Below, one piece after another: positions 36,861 to 52,304 of a stretch of DNA of 64,000 bases. The notes beneath the pieces are model-generated. The model saw only the letters and a program-made list of their open reading frames with translations. It was not told where the DNA came from and did not search any database. Position 1 is the first letter of the stretch; the number at the start of each line of letters is the position of its first letter. Source of the DNA: Rhodanobacter sp. DHB23 (GTDB lineage Bacteria > Pseudomonadota > Gammaproteobacteria > Xanthomonadales > Rhodanobacteraceae); assembly GCF_014842975.1 (NCBI RefSeq), contig NZ_JACYXK010000027.1, forward strand, positions 62,001-126,000, in the 5' to 3' direction. A program made the translations under genes and the position numbers.

Positions 36861-39476
36861 TCAGGCGTCGATCACCACCTCTTCCGTCTCGCCGCGCAGG
36901 TTGTACGGCGAGGACATGACCTTGCCGTAGGCGCCGGTTTGCGCGACCAGGATCACGTCGCCCTCCTGCGGCTCGGGCAGGCGGCGGTCGCTGCCCAGCA
37001 CGTCGCCCGATTCGCAGATCGGGCCGACCACCTGGAACAGCGCGTCGGCGGGTTCGTCGAGGCGGCTGAGGTTGGCGATCTCGTGCCAGGCGTCGTACAG
37101 CGCGGGGCGGATCAGGCTGTTCATGCCGGTGTCCACGCCGAGGTAGCGCCAGCTGCCCTTGCCCTTGGTCTGGGTGACGCGCGCCAGCAGCACGCCGGCG
37201 TCGGCCACCAGGTAGCGGCCCGGCTCCATCCACAGCTGGTAATGCGGATAGGCGGCCTTGACCTCGCGCAGCACCTTGTCCAGCGCGGCGATGTCCAGCT
37301 TTGCCTCGCCCGGATGCGAGGGCACGCCCAGGCCGCCGCCGATGTTGAGGAAGGCGATGCTGCCGATGCGCTCGGCGAGGCTGGCGAGCTGGCTGTACAC
37401 CTCGCCCCAGTGCTTCGCGTCGAGCACGCCCGAACCGAGGTGCGCATGCAGGCCGCGCACCACCACGCCATGCGCGTCGGCGTGGCGCAGGAAGGCGTCG
37501 AGCTGCTCCACCGGCAGGCCGAACTTGCTGCCGCTGCCGCCGGTGCGCACCTTCTCGTGATGGCCCAGGCCACGGCCGAGATCCACGCGCAGCACGATCT
37601 CGCGACCGCGGAACAGCTCGCCCCAGTGCTCCACCGGATGCAGGGCGTCCAGCGTGATCGTGGCGCGCGTGGCCAGGCCGCGTTCGAAATCCGCGCGTGA
37701 GGCGAAGTTGGGCGTGAACAGCAGCGGCACGTCGGCGGGCACTGCCGCCGACACCGCTTCCAGCTCGCCTGGCGAGACGCATTCGAAGGCGAAGCCTTCT
37801 CCGGCCAGCGCGCGCAGAATCGCCGGATGCGTGTTCGCCTTCACCGCGTAGTGCAGGCGATCCACCGCCGACAGCGATTTCAGTTCGCGCGCCTGCTGGC
37901 GCACCGTGGGCAGGTGGTAGACGTAGCGCGGCGTGGCCTCCGCAGCGATATCAAGAAGCCGGCTGCGTTCGGCCGGCTCGCGCCACCACGCGTGCGCAAC
38001 CGCCGCCTCGCCGCTGCCGTACAAATGCTGCCAGCTCGGGCCGAACAGCACGCTGTCGTCGGTGCGCAGCGCGCCGGCGGTGATCAGCAACTCGTGCAGG
38101 TGCGGCAGCAGGTCGTCCACCACGTCCTCGTCCACCACGAAGGTGAGGTTGAGGTTGTTGGACGACTGCGAGATCAGGTGCACGCGCAGCTGGTCGAACT
38201 CCGCCAGCACGCTGGACAGCGTGTGCAGCATCGAGCGCATGCCGCGGCCGACCAGGGTGATCGCCGCGCAGGGCGCGATCACCTTGACCCGGCACACCTT
38301 GGCGAGGTCGCCGGCCAGCGCGGCGATCGCGTCGGAATCGAGCAGGTTCTCGGTGGGGTCGAGCGACACGGTGACGTTGGTCTCGGCCGAGCCGATCAGG
38401 TCCACCGACAGGCCATGCTGCTTGAAGTGCGCGAACACGTCGGCGAGGAAGCCGACCTGCTGCCACATGCCCACCGATTCCATCGACACCAGGGTGATGC
38501 CCTTGCGCGCGCTGATCGCCTTCACCGAGGGCGCGTGCTCGCGCACCTGCGGGCCGATCACCGTGCCTTCCAGCTCGGGCCGGTTGGTGTCCTTCACCAG
38601 CAGCGGCACGCGCGGTTCGCGCAACGGCGACAGGCAGCGCGGGTGCAGCACCTTGGCGCCGGTGGAGGCGATTTCCTGCGCCTCCTCGTAGTCCAGCTTC
38701 TGCAGCAGGCGCGCGCCCGGCACCTGGCGCGGGTTGGCGGTGAACATGCCGGCCACGTCGGTCCAGATCTCCACGCGCGCGGCCTTGAGCAGCGCGCCGA
38801 AGTACGAAGCCGAGGTATCCGAACCGCCACGGCCAAGCAGCACCGTGCGCCCTTCGCTTTCGCGCGCGATGAACCCCTGCGTGATGAACACCTCGCCCTG
38901 CGCGGCGAGCCGCGCGTTCAAGGCCGGGTCGGGCCGGGCCTCGACCATCGCCGAGAGCAGCTTGGTGCGCTCGTTCTGGTTGGGCAGCGCGACCGCGGCA
39001 AGGCAGTCGCGCGCGTCCACCCATTGCGTACCCAGCCCCGTGTGGCTGAGGAAGGCCGCGCCCAGCGCGCTGGACATCAGCTCGCCGTGCGCCTGCACCA
39101 GCGCCGCCCAGGCCAGTTCGCCCAGCCGCGCCGGGCCTTCCGCCGCCAGCGCGGCCAGTTCGTCCAGCCGCGCGCCCAGCGTGGCCGGCAGCGGCAGCCG
39201 CATGTGGCCGAGCAGGTCGTGGTGGCGTTGCGCGATGGCGCCGGCCGCCGCCTTGCGTTTGCCCTGGTCGCCCTCGCCGCACAGCTGTTTCAGCGCGTCG
39301 GTGATGCCGGTGAGCGCTGACACGACCACCAGCACGCGCGCGCCTTCGGCGCGGCGGCTGGCGACCAGCTCGCGGATGTTGTGCCAGCGCGGCAGGGTGG
39401 CGACACTGGTGCCGCCGAACTTCATCACGATCCAGGGGGCGTCCGCCGGCAGCGGCGCGGGGGCGTTGTGATTCAC
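36861..39476 (-). CDS. lysC-lysA: Bifunctional aspartate kinase / diaminopimelate decarboxylase
   Basis: An 871-residue fusion of the first and last enzymes of lysine synthesis. Residues about 15-320 are the aspartokinase catalytic domain (IVMKFGGTSVATLPRWHNI, TVLLGRGGSDTSASYFGALL) and about 325-470 are ACT regulatory domains (LVSMESVGMWQQVGFLADVF, RVHLISQSSNNLNLTFVV). Residues about 485-871 are a PLP-dependent DAP decarboxylase with PLP Lys546 in LHYAVKANTHP, the HLGSG loop and the C-terminal CESGDVLGSDR. The fusion is characteristic of Xanthomonadales. Tandem AGACGTCT-like boxes lie about 90 bases upstream of the ATG. Confidence 0.95.
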   Translation of the reverse strand: MNHNAPAPLPADAPWIVMKFGGTSVATLPRWHNIRELVASRRAEGARVLVVVSALTGITDALKQLCGEGDQGKRKAAAGAIAQRHHDLLGHMRLPLPATLGARLDELAALAAEGPARLGELAWAALVQAHGELMSSALGAAFLSHTGLGTQWVDARDCLAAVALPNQNERTKLLSAMVEARPDPALNARLAAQGEVFITQGFIARESEGRTVLLGRGGSDTSASYFGALLKAARVEIWTDVAGMFTANPRQVPGARLLQKLDYEEAQEIASTGAKVLHPRCLSPLREPRVPLLVKDTNRPELEGTVIGPQVREHAPSVKAISARKGITLVSMESVGMWQQVGFLADVFAHFKQHGLSVDLIGSAETNVTVSLDPTENLLDSDAIAALAGDLAKVCRVKVIAPCAAITLVGRGMRSMLHTLSSVLAEFDQLRVHLISQSSNNLNLTFVVDEDVVDDLLPHLHELLITAGALRTDDSVLFGPSWQHLYGSGEAAVAHAWWREPAERSRLLDIAAEATPRYVYHLPTVRQQARELKSLSAVDRLHYAVKANTHPAILRALAGEGFAFECVSPGELEAVSAAVPADVPLLFTPNFASRADFERGLATRATITLDALHPVEHWGELFRGREIVLRVDLGRGLGHHEKVRTGGSGSKFGLPVEQLDAFLRHADAHGVVVRGLHAHLGSGVLDAKHWGEVYSQLASLAERIGSIAFLNIGGGLGVPSHPGEAKLDIAALDKVLREVKAAYPHYQLWMEPGRYLVADAGVLLARVTQTKGKGSWRYLGVDTGMNSLIRPALYDAWHEIANLSRLDEPADALFQVVGPICESGDVLGSDRRLPEPQEGDVILVAQTGAYGKVMSSPYNLRGETEEVVIDA

Positions 39477-39565: not shown

Positions 39566-39583
39566 TGGACGTCCAGACGTCCA
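39566..39583. promoter_or_regulatory. Tandem met-box-like operator upstream of lysC-lysA
   Basis: GGACGTCC and AGACGTCC lie side by side at 39567-39582. Read as a whole, 39566-39583 is a 7-bp perfect inverted repeat with a 4-base spacer. The units match the AGACGTCT consensus of MetJ boxes at 6 and 7 of 8 positions. On the minus strand a TTGACA (39586-39591) lies just upstream, so the boxes fall in the promoter spacer, a repressor position. A closely similar array precedes metX. Confidence 0.6.
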
Positions 39584-48726: not shown

Positions 48727-49809
48727 TCAGCCCAGCGCCAGCACGTCGCCCAGCAGCGCCTGCGCGGTGACTTCCGGCCCCGCGCCCGGCCCCTGGATCA
48801 CCAGCGGCTGGGTGTGGTAACGGGTGGTGGTGAGCGCGAACTGGTTGTCGGTGCCGTAGAGACGCGCGGCAGGGTGCTCGGCCGACACTTCGACCAGGCC
48901 CACGCGGGCGTGACCACGCTGGTTGAGGCGGGCGAGGAAACGCAGTACGTTGCCGCGCGCCTTCGCCTCGGCGTGGAGGGCGGCGAGCGGTTCGTCGAGT
49001 TCCTCGAGGCGGGCGAGGAACTGCTCGGTGTCGATCGCACGCAGCGGCTCGGGCACCAGGCTTTCCACCTGCACCTCGTCCCAGCCCAGCGCGAAGCCGG
49101 CGTTGCGGGCGATGATCAGCAGCTTGCGTGCCACGTCCTCGCCGGAAAGGTCGGCGCGCGGATCGGGTTCGGTGTAGCCGCGCTCGCGCGCCTCGCGCAG
49201 CAGCGCGGAGAACGGGCGGCTGCCGTCGTAGCCGTTGAACAGGTAGCTGAGCGAGCCGGAGAACACGCCTTCCAGCGTGAGCAGCGCGTCGCCGCACTGG
49301 CGCAGCCGGCGCAGCGTGGAAAGCACCGGCAGGCCCGCGCCCACGGTGGCCGAATCGCCGTAGCGCGCGCCATTGGCCAGCGCGGCCTGCAGCGCGCGCC
49401 AGCCCGGCAGTTCGCCGCCGCCCAGCGACTTGTTGGCGGTGACCACGTGGTAGCCGCGTACCAGCCATTCCGCGTGGCGCGCAGCGAGTTCGCCGCTGGC
49501 AGTGGCGTCCACGATCACCTTGATCGTGGCATCGCTGGCGTCGAGCGCAGCGAGCAGGGCCGCGTCGTCGCGCTGCACGCCGGTGCTCTTGAGCTGCTCG
49601 CGCAGGTTGCGCTCGGCGAGCTTCGCCGGCTCGGTCTGCTGGCGGCGCGAATTCGCCGCACCCACCAGCCGCAGGGAAGCGGCGGCCGGCGTGTTGAGCA
49701 GCTTGAGGAAGGCACCACCGACCACGCCGGTGCCCAGCAGCACCACGGCGACGGCGGGTGCCGCCTCGCGTTTCGCCGCGGGCGCGGCTTCGGCCAGCAC
49801 CGCGCTCAT
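48727..49809 (-). CDS. hom: Homoserine dehydrogenase
   Basis: Reduces aspartate semialdehyde to homoserine, the branch point to methionine and threonine. It is 360 residues and lacks the C-terminal ACT domain of longer forms, as in other Xanthomonadales. The NAD(P)-binding loop is VVLLGTGVVGGAFLKLLN. VVTANKSLGG and GVFSGSLSYLFNGYDG precede the catalytic Lys/Asp segment EPDPRADLSGEDVARKLLII. The ATG overlaps the metB stop by four bases. It is third in the riboswitch-controlled met operon. Confidence 0.95.
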   Translation of the reverse strand: MSAVLAEAAPAAKREAAPAVAVVLLGTGVVGGAFLKLLNTPAAASLRLVGAANSRRQQTEPAKLAERNLREQLKSTGVQRDDAALLAALDASDATIKVIVDATASGELAARHAEWLVRGYHVVTANKSLGGGELPGWRALQAALANGARYGDSATVGAGLPVLSTLRRLRQCGDALLTLEGVFSGSLSYLFNGYDGSRPFSALLREARERGYTEPDPRADLSGEDVARKLLIIARNAGFALGWDEVQVESLVPEPLRAIDTEQFLARLEELDEPLAALHAEAKARGNVLRFLARLNQRGHARVGLVEVSAEHPAARLYGTDNQFALTTTRYHTQPLVIQGPGAGPEVTAQALLGDVLALG

Positions 49810-50996
49810 GCACCCACCGCGCGTTTGGATTTGCCCGCGGCCACCGCACGCGCCAGCCCGGCGTCGAGGTCGCGCAGCAGGTCGTCGCCATCCTCGATGC
49901 CCACCGACACGCGCAGCAGGGTGTCGGCGATGCCGGCCTTGTGGCGCGCTTCCGGCGCCATCGCGGCGTGGGTCATGGTGGCCGGATGCGCGATCAGGCT
50001 CTCCACGCCGCCCAGCGATTCGGCCAGCGAGAAATATTCCAGTCCATCGACAAAGGCGGCGATCTGCGTCTCGTCGCCCTCCAGCTCGAAACTGAGCATG
50101 GCGCCGAAACCCTGCTGCTGGCGCGCGGCCAGCGCGTGGTACGGGTTGGACGCGAGGCCGGGGTAGTACACCTTGCGCACGGCGGCATGGCCGTCCAGGT
50201 GCGCGGCGATGCGCTCGGCGTTTTCCTGGTGCTGGCGCAGGCGCACGCCCAGCGTGCGCAGGCCGCGCAGCGTGAGGTAGCTGTCGAACGGCGCGCCGGT
50301 GAGGCCGTTGCAGTTGCCCCACCACTTGAGCTGCTCGGCCAGCTCCGGTGTGCGCGCCACCACGGCACCGCCGACCACGTCGCTGTGACCGTTGATGTAC
50401 TTGGTGGTGGAGTGCACCACCACGTCGGCGCCCAGCGCCAGCGGCTGCTGCAGCGCGGGCGAGAGGAAGGTGTTGTCCACCACCACCAGCGCGCCCGCGG
50501 CGTGCGCGGCCTGCGCCACGTGGCGGATGTCGGTGATGCGCAGCAGCGGGTTGGACGGCGTCTCCACCCACACCAGCGCAGGCTTGGCGGCGAGGCCGGC
50601 TGCGAGCGCGGCGGGATCGGTGAGATCGGCGAACTGCACCGCGAAGCGGCCCTTCTTCGCCCAGGCGTCGAGGATGCGCCAGGTGCCGCCGTAGCAGTCA
50701 TGCGCGGCGAGCACCGTGGCGCCGGCAGGCACCAGCTCCAGCACCAGCGCCACCGCGGCCATGCCGCTGGCGGTGACCACAGCTCCCGCACCCTGCTCCA
50801 GCTCGGCCAGCGCGTTCGCCAGCAGGTCGCGCGTCGGGTTGCCGCTGCGCGAGTAGTCGTAGGGGCGCTTCTTGCCGAAGCCCTCGAAGCTGTAGTTGGT
50901 CGAGAGGTGCAGCGGCGGCACCACGGCGCCGTGCTGGGTGTCGCTCTCGATGCCGGCGCGCACGGCGCGGGTGATGGAGGTGGCGTTGTCGCTCAT
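49806..50996 (-). CDS. metB: Cystathionine gamma-synthase / O-succinylhomoserine lyase
   Basis: PLP enzyme joining an activated homoserine with cysteine (or sulfide). It is 396 residues. Features are GAVVPPLHLSTNYSFEGFG, YDYSRSGNPTRDLL, TASGMAAVALVL and the PLP lysine in HSTTKYINGHSDVVGGAVV. ESLIAHPATMTHAAM near the C-terminus is typical of MetB/MetZ-group enzymes. Cystathionine synthase versus direct sulfhydrylase cannot be decided from sequence alone. It lies 42 bases downstream of metX and overlaps hom. Confidence 0.94.
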   Translation of the reverse strand: MSDNATSITRAVRAGIESDTQHGAVVPPLHLSTNYSFEGFGKKRPYDYSRSGNPTRDLLANALAELEQGAGAVVTASGMAAVALVLELVPAGATVLAAHDCYGGTWRILDAWAKKGRFAVQFADLTDPAALAAGLAAKPALVWVETPSNPLLRITDIRHVAQAAHAAGALVVVDNTFLSPALQQPLALGADVVVHSTTKYINGHSDVVGGAVVARTPELAEQLKWWGNCNGLTGAPFDSYLTLRGLRTLGVRLRQHQENAERIAAHLDGHAAVRKVYYPGLASNPYHALAARQQQGFGAMLSFELEGDETQIAAFVDGLEYFSLAESLGGVESLIAHPATMTHAAMAPEARHKAGIADTLLRVSVGIEDGDDLLRDLDAGLARAVAAGKSKRAVGA

Positions 50997-51038: not shown

Positions 51039-52052
51039 TCAACGCAGGGCTTCGCGCAGCAGCGGCGCGAGTTGCTCCGGCTCCTTGAGGAAGGCGTCGT
51101 GGCCGTAGGGCGACTCCACCACTTCCAGCGTGGCGGGGCCGCGCAGGCGGCGCTGCAGTTCGCAGAGGTCGGCCAGCGGCACCAGGCGGTCCGACGGGAA
51201 GCCGATCAGGGTGGTCGGCAGCGGCACCTGCTCGGGCGCCACGTCGTGCAGGTCGATGGACTCGGACAACGCGAGGAAACGGTCGGCGTCGAAGCGCTCG
51301 ACGAAACGGCGTCCCTGGTGCTCGAGGTAGTCCTCGACCGGGAAATGGAAGCGCTCGCCGCGCCATTCCGGCTCGCCGGCGAAGCGGCGGCCGAACTCGG
51401 CGCTGCCGCGGTAGGTGGTGATGGCGAGCTGGCGCGCCAGCGCCAGCGCCTCGTCCAGCTGGCCGCTGGACTGGCCCAGCCGCACGATGCCGCGCTGCAC
51501 GCTGCGCTGCGCGGTGGACAACGGGTGGGCGCGGTGCGCGCCGGCCAGCAGCACCAGCCGGTCGGCGCGCTGCGCGTGCCGCGCGGCGAACGCCAGGCCC
51601 ACCATCGCGCCGTAGGACGAACCCACGAAGGCATGCGCCTTGACGATGCCCAGCGCGTCGAGCAGGGCGGCCAGCGCATCGGCCTGGTCCTCGCTGGAGA
51701 TAGTGGCGGTGCCCAGCTCCGCCGGGGTAAGCCAGTCGATCGCCAGCACGCGGAAACGGGCGAGGTCGATCGCCGCATCCTCGGCCACCAGCGCCTGCCA
51801 CCAGCCCGCCGCGGTATCGGCCGGCGCGGTGACGTCGCGGTTGGCGGAGATCCCGCCCTGCACGATCACGGTGGGCGCGTCCGGCGCACCGCACCACAGG
51901 TAGCGCACGTCGACTTCGCGCGGGCCGTTGCCGTACTTCGGGCTGAGCGCCAGCCGCCGCGTGCTGCGCTGCGCGCCCAGCGCGCGCGGCGCCACGGACG
52001 GGCCGACCACGTCGGCACAGGGAATACAGGTTTCGGGCTGCGGCTGGCTCAT
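51039..52052 (-). CDS. metX: Homoserine O-acyltransferase (MetX family)
   Basis: An alpha/beta-hydrolase-fold enzyme activating homoserine for methionine synthesis, 337 residues, the short MetX form of Xanthomonadales. The nucleophile elbow is VGSSYGAMVGLAFAARH, and LIGFPSDRLVPLADL and SPYGHDAFL carry the Asp and His of the triad. Whether the acyl donor is succinyl- or acetyl-CoA is not certain; relatives in this group often use succinyl-CoA. The ATG at 52052 has a GGAGAG ribosome-binding site four bases upstream, which is sequestered in a hairpin below the SAM-I riboswitch. It is first in metX-metB-hom. Confidence 0.92.
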   Translation of the reverse strand: MSQPQPETCIPCADVVGPSVAPRALGAQRSTRRLALSPKYGNGPREVDVRYLWCGAPDAPTVIVQGGISANRDVTAPADTAAGWWQALVAEDAAIDLARFRVLAIDWLTPAELGTATISSEDQADALAALLDALGIVKAHAFVGSSYGAMVGLAFAARHAQRADRLVLLAGAHRAHPLSTAQRSVQRGIVRLGQSSGQLDEALALARQLAITTYRGSAEFGRRFAGEPEWRGERFHFPVEDYLEHQGRRFVERFDADRFLALSESIDLHDVAPEQVPLPTTLIGFPSDRLVPLADLCELQRRLRGPATLEVVESPYGHDAFLKEPEQLAPLLREALR

Positions 52053-52056
52053 GCGT

Positions 52057-52092
52057 CTCTCCGTTCGGCATCGTCCTGCGGATGCCGGAGAG
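52057..52092 (-). promoter_or_regulatory. Shine-Dalgarno-sequestering hairpin of the met operon
   Basis: On the minus strand, CTCTCCGGCATC (52081-52092) pairs with GATGCC (52067-52072) and GGAGAG (52057-52062) across a four-base bulge. GGAGAG is the metX ribosome-binding site, so the hairpin would block initiation. It is the likely expression platform of the riboswitch just upstream, acting on translation. No T-run is present, arguing against transcription termination. Confidence 0.75.
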
Positions 52093-52133
52093 GAGCCCCG
52101 CGCAGATGCGGCACGACGCCGCTGCGCAAGCTG

Positions 52134-52242
52134 CCCATCTGCCGGCGTGCCTTCGCACCACCGCAGGAGTTGGCACCGTCGCGGAACATTCCGCAGGTTG
52201 CCCCGGCTTCAAAGGGCCTGTCCCTCAGCCGGTCTCGATGAG
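52134..52242 (-). ncRNA. SAM-I (S-box) riboswitch
   Basis: The aptamer lies in the metX leader. Closing stem P1 is CUCAUC (52237-52242) with GAUGGG (52134-52139). Inside are GAGACCGGCUGAGGGA, the P2 kink-turn and pseudoknot region GGCCCUUUGAAGCC, and GGGGCAACC. A P3 hairpin follows (GCGGAA...UUCCGC), then the core GGUGCCAACUCCUGC, and last a P4-side hairpin before AGAUGGG. All match the SAM-I consensus. SAM binding should lower metX-metB-hom expression. A translational SAM-I switch upstream of the met genes is known in Xanthomonas campestris. Confidence 0.94.
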
Positions 52243-52250
52243 TACGGCGG

Positions 52251-52279
52251 ATTCTGCATATGACTTTGCGCCATGTCAA
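52251..52279 (-). promoter_or_regulatory. Promoter of the metX-metB-hom operon
   Basis: TTGACA (52274-52279, perfect -35) and CAGAAT (52251-52256, 4 of 6) with a 17-base spacer on the minus strand. Transcription would begin near 52244, right at the 5' end of the SAM-I aptamer. Confidence 0.75.
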
Positions 52280-52280
52280 T

Positions 52281-52304
52281 AGACGTCTAAACGTCTGGAC
52301 GTTC
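52281..52304. promoter_or_regulatory. Three tandem met-box-like 8-mers upstream of the met promoter
   Basis: AGACGTCT, AAACGTCT and GGACGTTC lie end to end, matching the MetJ met-box consensus at 8, 7 and 6 of 8. They also form overlapping inverted repeats (AGACGT-ctaa-ACGTCT). The array ends one base upstream of the TTGACA element. A similar array precedes lysC-lysA. The binding protein could be MetJ or the ArsR-family SamR predicted for Xanthomonadales; neither gene is in the window. Confidence 0.65.

Follow-up and report, generated by a model that had tools for sequence, protein, structure and literature searches.

The met operon leader in the window

The window, a stretch of 64,000 nucleotides from Rhodanobacter sp. 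DHB23 (family Rhodanobacteraceae), carried on its minus strand the methionine operon metX-metB-hom. Gene metX (51039..52052, start codon at 52052-52050) was assigned to homoserine O-succinyltransferases (NF006449, 369 bits, cut-off 296) and metB (49806..50996) to cystathionine gamma-synthases (TIGR02080, 604 bits, cut-off 505), while hom (48727..49809), which overlaps metB by 4 bases, matched homoserine dehydrogenase models below their cut-offs. Upstream of metX, some 250 bases of the same strand displayed a box array, a promoter, a riboswitch and a hairpin, in the order given by a sequence-only reading of this DNA; the coordinates reported here were read from the sequence.

The array was composed of three adjacent 8-mers, box 3 (GAACGTCC, 52297..52304), box 2 (AGACGTTT, 52289..52296) and box 1 (AGACGTCT, 52281..52288), matching AGACGTCT at 5, 7 and 8 of 8 positions, respectively, and it was kept in relatives (see below). 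A predicted MetJ operator calls for a minimum of two adjoining 8-mers of the AGACGTCT type close to a promoter, and this is what was found at metX. A single base separated box 1 from a -35 hexamer TTGACA (52274..52279), followed after a 17-base spacer by a -10 hexamer CAGAAT (52251..52256), a predicted promoter from which transcription of the operon would start. The best box pair scored 15/16 and the triple 20/24; neither score was equalled when the 150 bases upstream were dinucleotide-shuffled 20,000 times (maxima 13 and 17). Genome-wide, 13 tandem sites had at most 3 mismatches, and the metX site scored highest among them; a reversed-pattern control gave 6 sites.

Six bases beyond the -10 hexamer began a complete SAM-I riboswitch aptamer (52132..52244), located in the leader of a methionine gene and ending 79 bases before the metX start codon. 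Infernal matched RF00162 over its full length (model positions 1-108) with 82.5 bits (E 6e-18) against a gathering score of 44.4, which confirmed the aptamer that had been proposed from the sequence alone. Closer to the gene, a hairpin CTCTCCG...CGGAGAG (52057..52092; arms 52092-52086 and 52063-52057) is predicted to sequester the metX Shine-Dalgarno (SD) sequence. The 3' strand of helix P1 in the aptamer (52142-52136) has a complement in an additional strand, CATCTGC (52102..52108), and the unconstrained fold predicted their pairing. The SD of the window was closed in both folds computed, that of the whole leader and that of the platform alone, so no clean ON state was predicted. In X. campestris, where a translational SAM-I switch on met genes is indeed reported, as the sequence-only reading had stated, the anti-SD hairpin was found to form without SAM too and uncharged tRNA-fMet was invoked by the authors (PMC7270179). 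An upstream ATG within the SD hairpin was considered as the start of a leader peptide and dropped, as its frame continues as a long overlapping ORF.

Conservation in Rhodanobacteraceae and in other families

Among 147 genomes of Rhodanobacteraceae (f1), SAM-I was found in 139, MetJ in 146 and both in 138. Leaders were examined at 130 of the 140 SAM-I places (30 + 100 loci), covering all 26 genera; merely 60 upstream bases were available for one of them (L123), and the orientation of 25 leaders without a regular-expression match was taken from the strand of the search match. The 8-mers had been expected to recur in related met leaders and they clearly did: the best tandem pair within 150 bases upstream scored at least 12/16 in 129 of the 130 leaders, the sole exception being L116 (pair score 10), and at least 13 in 126, counts that are inflated, like every leader count given here, by kinship among the genomes. 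Only 37 of 13,000 shuffles reached a score of 12, and 2 reached 13.

The spacing between boxes and promoter was likewise conserved. With L161 excluded, the gap between the pair and the -35 hexamer was one base in 99 of 129 leaders. The pair ended nine bases before the hexamer in 13 leaders and six bases before it in 3, the first -35 base fell inside the pair in 12, and in 2 the pair extended 9 bases past the -35 start. The -35 hexamer was TTGACA, TTGACG or TTGACT in all 129 leaders, the promoter having been picked by a score favouring such hexamers, and the -10 hexamer displayed A2 and T6 in all 129, both being favoured by the score that selected it. At L161, SAM-I was matched for a second time in genome G130, with a lower score (52.5 bits) and likewise with an upstream box pair (14/16).

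Folding of the SD region was tried for 126 leaders and gave values for 122, with SD and start codon assigned by a simple rule; three leaders with a doubtful start (L152, L154 and L156) were left out, as was L161. The unpaired probability of the SD core had a median of 0.07, versus 0.37 for shuffled platforms. It lay below 0.2 in 70 of the 122 leaders, as did 2 of the shuffle means, and for 74 leaders, where 12 would be expected, it ranked among the lowest 10% of values from 30 shuffles of the leader concerned. In the window leader it was 0.04, with a shuffle mean of 0.45, and a mostly open SD was encountered in five leaders (L019, L074, L101, L145 and L159). SD bases paired with upstream bases in 115 of the 122 minimum-energy folds, and every SD base was paired in 68. 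The hairpin arms varied by genus with retained complementarity (CTCTCC/GGAGAG, GGTTCTCC/GGAGAACC and CCGGTTCC/GGAACCGG). Since the SD is predicted to be buried in most family leaders, translational control as in X. campestris appears likely. A loop motif CGCRG..CGATG between the hairpin arms (52069-52080 in the window) was recorded in 67 of the 122 f1 platforms and in 1 of 36 platforms from family f2.

Simultaneous presence of both devices had been called unusual, and it was so in the genomes sampled. In 250 genomes of the order, searched for SAM-I with stricter Infernal filters that may lose weak matches, MetJ and SAM-I occurred together in all 52 Rhodanobacteraceae; among the 198 others, MetJ was found in 20, SAM-I in 116 and both in a single one (G243, family f9). 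Apart from G243, MetJ and SAM-I never co-occurred in the f9 genomes sampled, unlike in Rhodanobacteraceae. The same filters applied to 274 genomes spread over the class recovered SAM-I in 6 and MetJ in 3, the window genome being the only one with both.

Outside f1, leaders were examined at 60 of 121 SAM-I places; those of f2 were the ones among the matches listed, and the remaining ones were chosen to span families. Tandem met boxes (at least 12/16) were found in none of these 60 leaders, all of which came from genomes without a MetJ match; no pair scored above 9 in f2 (0/36) and f9 (0/4) or above 10 in the other families (0/20). The same -35 was abutted in 46 of the 60 by a 24-base palindrome, ATCNCTNNATNNNNATNNAGNGAT, whose terminal GAT mostly ran into TTGAC. 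This palindrome was displayed by 36/36 f2 leaders among the matches listed (13-14 of 14 positions), and by 2/2 leaders in f3, 5/5 in f4, 2/4 in f5 and 1/1 in f6; it was found in none of the leaders from f8 (0/4), f9 (0/4), f10 (0/3) and f11 (0/1), and at 11/14 or more in none of the 130 f1 met leaders. Shuffles reached 11 in 0 to 2.5% of cases, depending on the family. The pattern was drawn up after viewing the f2 and several other leaders, so the fit in those leaders is partly by construction; the f1 zero is unaffected. The published SamR palindrome is 24 bases long with ATC...GAT ends, and metB, metX2 and hom are among the genes that SamR is predicted to regulate (PMC4239095). The palindrome of these families fits the published one.

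A samR homolog was present in the window genome, where it codes for an ArsR-plus-methyltransferase protein of 310 residues upstream of metH1-metH2. Homologs (E at most 1e-40) occurred in 237 of the 250 genomes of the order, including 52/52 Rhodanobacteraceae. SamR was described as a distant SahR homolog adjoining metH1/metH2 (Leyn et al. 2014, PMC4239095), and the name is applied here by this description, without comparison to the protein of these authors. In three f2 and two f1 genomes, a palindrome resembling that of the met leaders (12-14 of 14 positions) was observed just 5' of samR-metH. A search for a stricter form gave sites in 5/5 f2, 0/5 f1 and 0/2 other genomes; one of the f2 sites precedes metE and another precedes ahcY (judged by eye).

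The site predicted for the repressor at the met promoter thus differs by lineage, since boxes were present in 129/130 f1 leaders versus 0/60 others and the palindrome in 46 of the latter, while the riboswitch is constant. In Rhodanobacteraceae, a putative SamR-type site persists at metH, whereas the met operon has predicted MetJ boxes. An operator exchange between families is the parsimonious reading of this distribution, not a proof, and it may have run in either direction.

MetJ, its putative targets and the reading of the leader

The postulated regulator was found: a metJ gene (G000:C22:152116-152370, E 1.0e-34; locus L001:1246-1797, minus strand) lies approximately 26 kb past the end of the window. 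Over 87 residues its product matched structures of the E. coli protein (2.4e-30), and it also matched model NF003622 with 124.9 bits (cut-off 110). The best explanation, and in our view a fairly probable one, is a two-layer off switch acting on one operon, MetJ at the DNA level and then SAM-I in the RNA. When SAM is plentiful, MetJ would occupy the tandem boxes at the -35 hexamer and block initiation of metX-metB-hom; transcripts escaping this block would fold the SAM-I aptamer and keep the metX SD shut in its hairpin. The protein layer would depend on the lineage, with MetJ boxes in Rhodanobacteraceae and the SamR-type palindrome in several other families, both placed against the -35. The two layers are supported by the full SAM-I match, metJ in the genome, the conserved boxes and the buried SD. 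A proteome of Rhodanobacter R12, in which MetJ rose and four methionine enzymes fell with nitrate (PMC12146267), was also counted in favour of this explanation.

The MetJ proteins of the family were sampled from 62 loci (61 genes, G024 being present twice) representing all 26 genera, one of them (L049) truncated by a contig end. Lys23 and Thr25, which we take to be DNA-contact residues, were kept in 61/61 genes. Glu39 and Arg42 were both kept in 44 and Glu39/His42 was found in one, and in 16 genes of several genera position 39 was Leu and position 42 was Glu, Tyr, His or Ser (L001, L242-L251, L253, L257, L259, L260 and L262). MetJ of the window genome belonged to the latter group (Leu39/Glu42), and the replacement was also present in 10/10 other congeners examined. 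According to a simulation, Glu39 and Arg42 are crucial SAM partners of MetJ, and mutating either is predicted to lower co-repressor activity (PMC2775130).

Loss of these two residues weakens the case for a SAM-dependent MetJ and leaves its membership of the MetJ family unaffected. With both replaced, SAM may not be the co-repressor of MetJ in the genus of the window. The sequence-only reading had proposed that SAM is read twice here. Its architectural part, MetJ boxes followed by SAM-I at metX, is strongly supported; sensing of SAM by both protein and RNA in the window genome is likely but unproven, because MetJ of this genus lacks Glu39 and Arg42.

These substitutions also give some room, though we think it rather unlikely, to a division of labour in which MetJ of the window's genus would bind the boxes independently of SAM (constitutively or on another signal, its C-terminal tail helping) and the riboswitch would be the only SAM reader. 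Leu39 with an altered position 42 next to intact Lys23 and Thr25 points in this direction, as does the predicted decrease in co-repressor activity. Yet, this prediction comes from a simulation, and joint substitutions at 39 and 42 could yield an altered, working pocket; moreover, Glu39 and Arg42 are kept in most family genes and boxes occur in leaders of both MetJ groups.

The tail in question is rich in Lys and Ala (pooled, 36% and 35%), starts after the ELRR/ELKR domain end and was observed in all 60 uncut family genes, with 35-310 residues (median 93). In the window genome it weakly matched histone-H1-like families, below cut-off. No Lys/Ala tail was found in nine MetJ proteins from families f8, f9 and f12 (nine of the 20 found outside f1), which were extracted with a looser motif than those of f1, and the literature searched gave no paper pairing MetJ with 'histone H1-like'. 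Taken together, tail, residues and operators could be joined in a single scenario, which we regard as speculative and unlikely: the operator would have been exchanged between families at the riboswitch promoter (SamR palindrome versus MetJ boxes, same -35), and Rhodanobacteraceae MetJ would have acquired a tail like that of histone H1 and lost its canonical SAM contacts in certain genera, leaving the RNA as SAM sensor and MetJ as a differently tuned or chromatin-like silencer.

Findings in X. campestris bear on whether the boxes matter at all. Its met promoter was reported as unresponsive to methionine, with regulation by the 5'UTR, and metJ as absent (PMC6230763), which suggests that the protein layer described here may matter little in some relatives. 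Control by the riboswitch alone, the boxes being a weak or vestigial operator, would extend this situation of the orthologous operon to the window. We consider it improbable: the boxes were kept across the 26 genera, mostly at the exact one-base distance, and the X. campestris promoter is not equivalent, given the reported absence of metJ and the box-less f2 leaders.

Regulon sites were sought by genome pattern searches, and the likely MetJ sites that emerged ahead of aspartokinase, gltB, TonB-receptor and metJ genes speak for the preferred two-layer explanation. In the window, a tandem pair (GGACGTCT GGACGTCC, 13/16) was located at 39567..39582 (minus strand), upstream of a bifunctional aspartate kinase/diaminopimelate decarboxylase gene (36861..39476, minus strand; NF006515, 1211 bits, cut-off 802), and an equivalent site and gene were present in congener G069 (L378). 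This pair likely belongs to the same regulon as the metX boxes, which would make the kinase/decarboxylase gene a probable second MetJ target in the window. A further tandem site precedes another aspartokinase in G004 (named by eye from its N-terminus). Pairs of at least 11/16 were also found within 350 bases upstream of metJ at 57 of 62 loci (12/16 in the window genome, G000), a count made without shuffle control. Sites in front of metJ and in front of an aspartokinase gene are also a feature of the E. coli MetJ regulon.

Box pairs were also recorded ahead of genes named by eye. In G000 and G024 (L231 and L368) they precede gltB, which probably codes for the large subunit of glutamate synthase, the boxes at L231 abutting TTGACG in a way that resembles the metX arrangement. 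In G000 and G021 (L233 and L385) they precede a TonB-dependent receptor beside an fmdB-like gene, which makes this receptor a candidate uptake target. Another tandem site lies in the cysG/cysB intergenic region of G000. Twelve chosen family genomes yielded 170 tandem sites versus 59 with a reversed pattern, so many single sites are due to chance; those in coding sequences or at gene ends (among them L223, L224, L226, L227, L232 and L234, together with L230 within metE) were judged on inspection to be probably random and were not considered further.

Binding of the 8-mers by a protein other than MetJ is very improbable: the assignment to MetJ in this family was made from sequence and the literature searched gave no binding data for it, but the motif corresponds to the AGACGTCT consensus, nearly every genome of the family has metJ, most metJ loci carry similar boxes, and all 60 box-less leaders came from genomes without a MetJ match.

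Comparison with known systems

SAM-I Xcc of X. campestris (PMC7270179, PMC6230763) is similar to the present riboswitch in its aptamer family and in the SD enclosed in a hairpin, and the type of met operon is shared (acyltransferase, cystathionine gamma-synthase and homoserine dehydrogenase). It differs by the methionine-blind promoter and missing metJ reported there, whereas metJ and boxes were found here. Contrary to this report, the MetR/MetJ system was stated in PMC7270179 to appear conserved in Xanthomonas. Family f2, which we infer is probably that of X. campestris, displayed the SamR-type palindrome in leaders where Rhodanobacteraceae have met boxes.

The enterobacterial MetJ regulon (PMC4239095) shares with Rhodanobacteraceae a ribbon-helix-helix MetJ and tandem AGACGTCT-type promoter boxes. 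The histone-H1-like tail and a promoter shared with SAM-I set Rhodanobacteraceae apart from it. In the available portion of the same source (Leyn et al.), MetJ is listed for six gammaproteobacterial groups and not for four Xanthomonadales genomes. The SamR regulon described there for Xanthomonadales has its counterpart here in the ArsR-plus-methyltransferase regulator upstream of the metH genes; at the met operon, its palindrome was present in 36/36 f2 leaders among the matches listed and in 0/130 f1 leaders at 11/14 or more.

No description of MetJ and SAM-I sharing one promoter was encountered in the available portions of the literature searched. MetJ boxes and SAM-I, each known on its own, form a new combination that extends through the family: rarely found together elsewhere in the order (1/198), they occur on one promoter across 26 genera. 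The operator difference between families and the unusual MetJ are the parts most worth following. The same riboswitch placed behind MetJ boxes, a SamR-type site or neither offers a natural comparison bearing on why one operon takes both protein and RNA control, and a MetJ with a tail and changed SAM residues may uncouple the binding of DNA from the sensing of a ligand. Control by a repressor and then by a leader RNA within one operon, both responding to identical or related signals, is known from E. coli trp (TrpR plus attenuator), Salmonella mgtA and B. subtilis pur, systems that differ from the metX leader in their ligands and parts.
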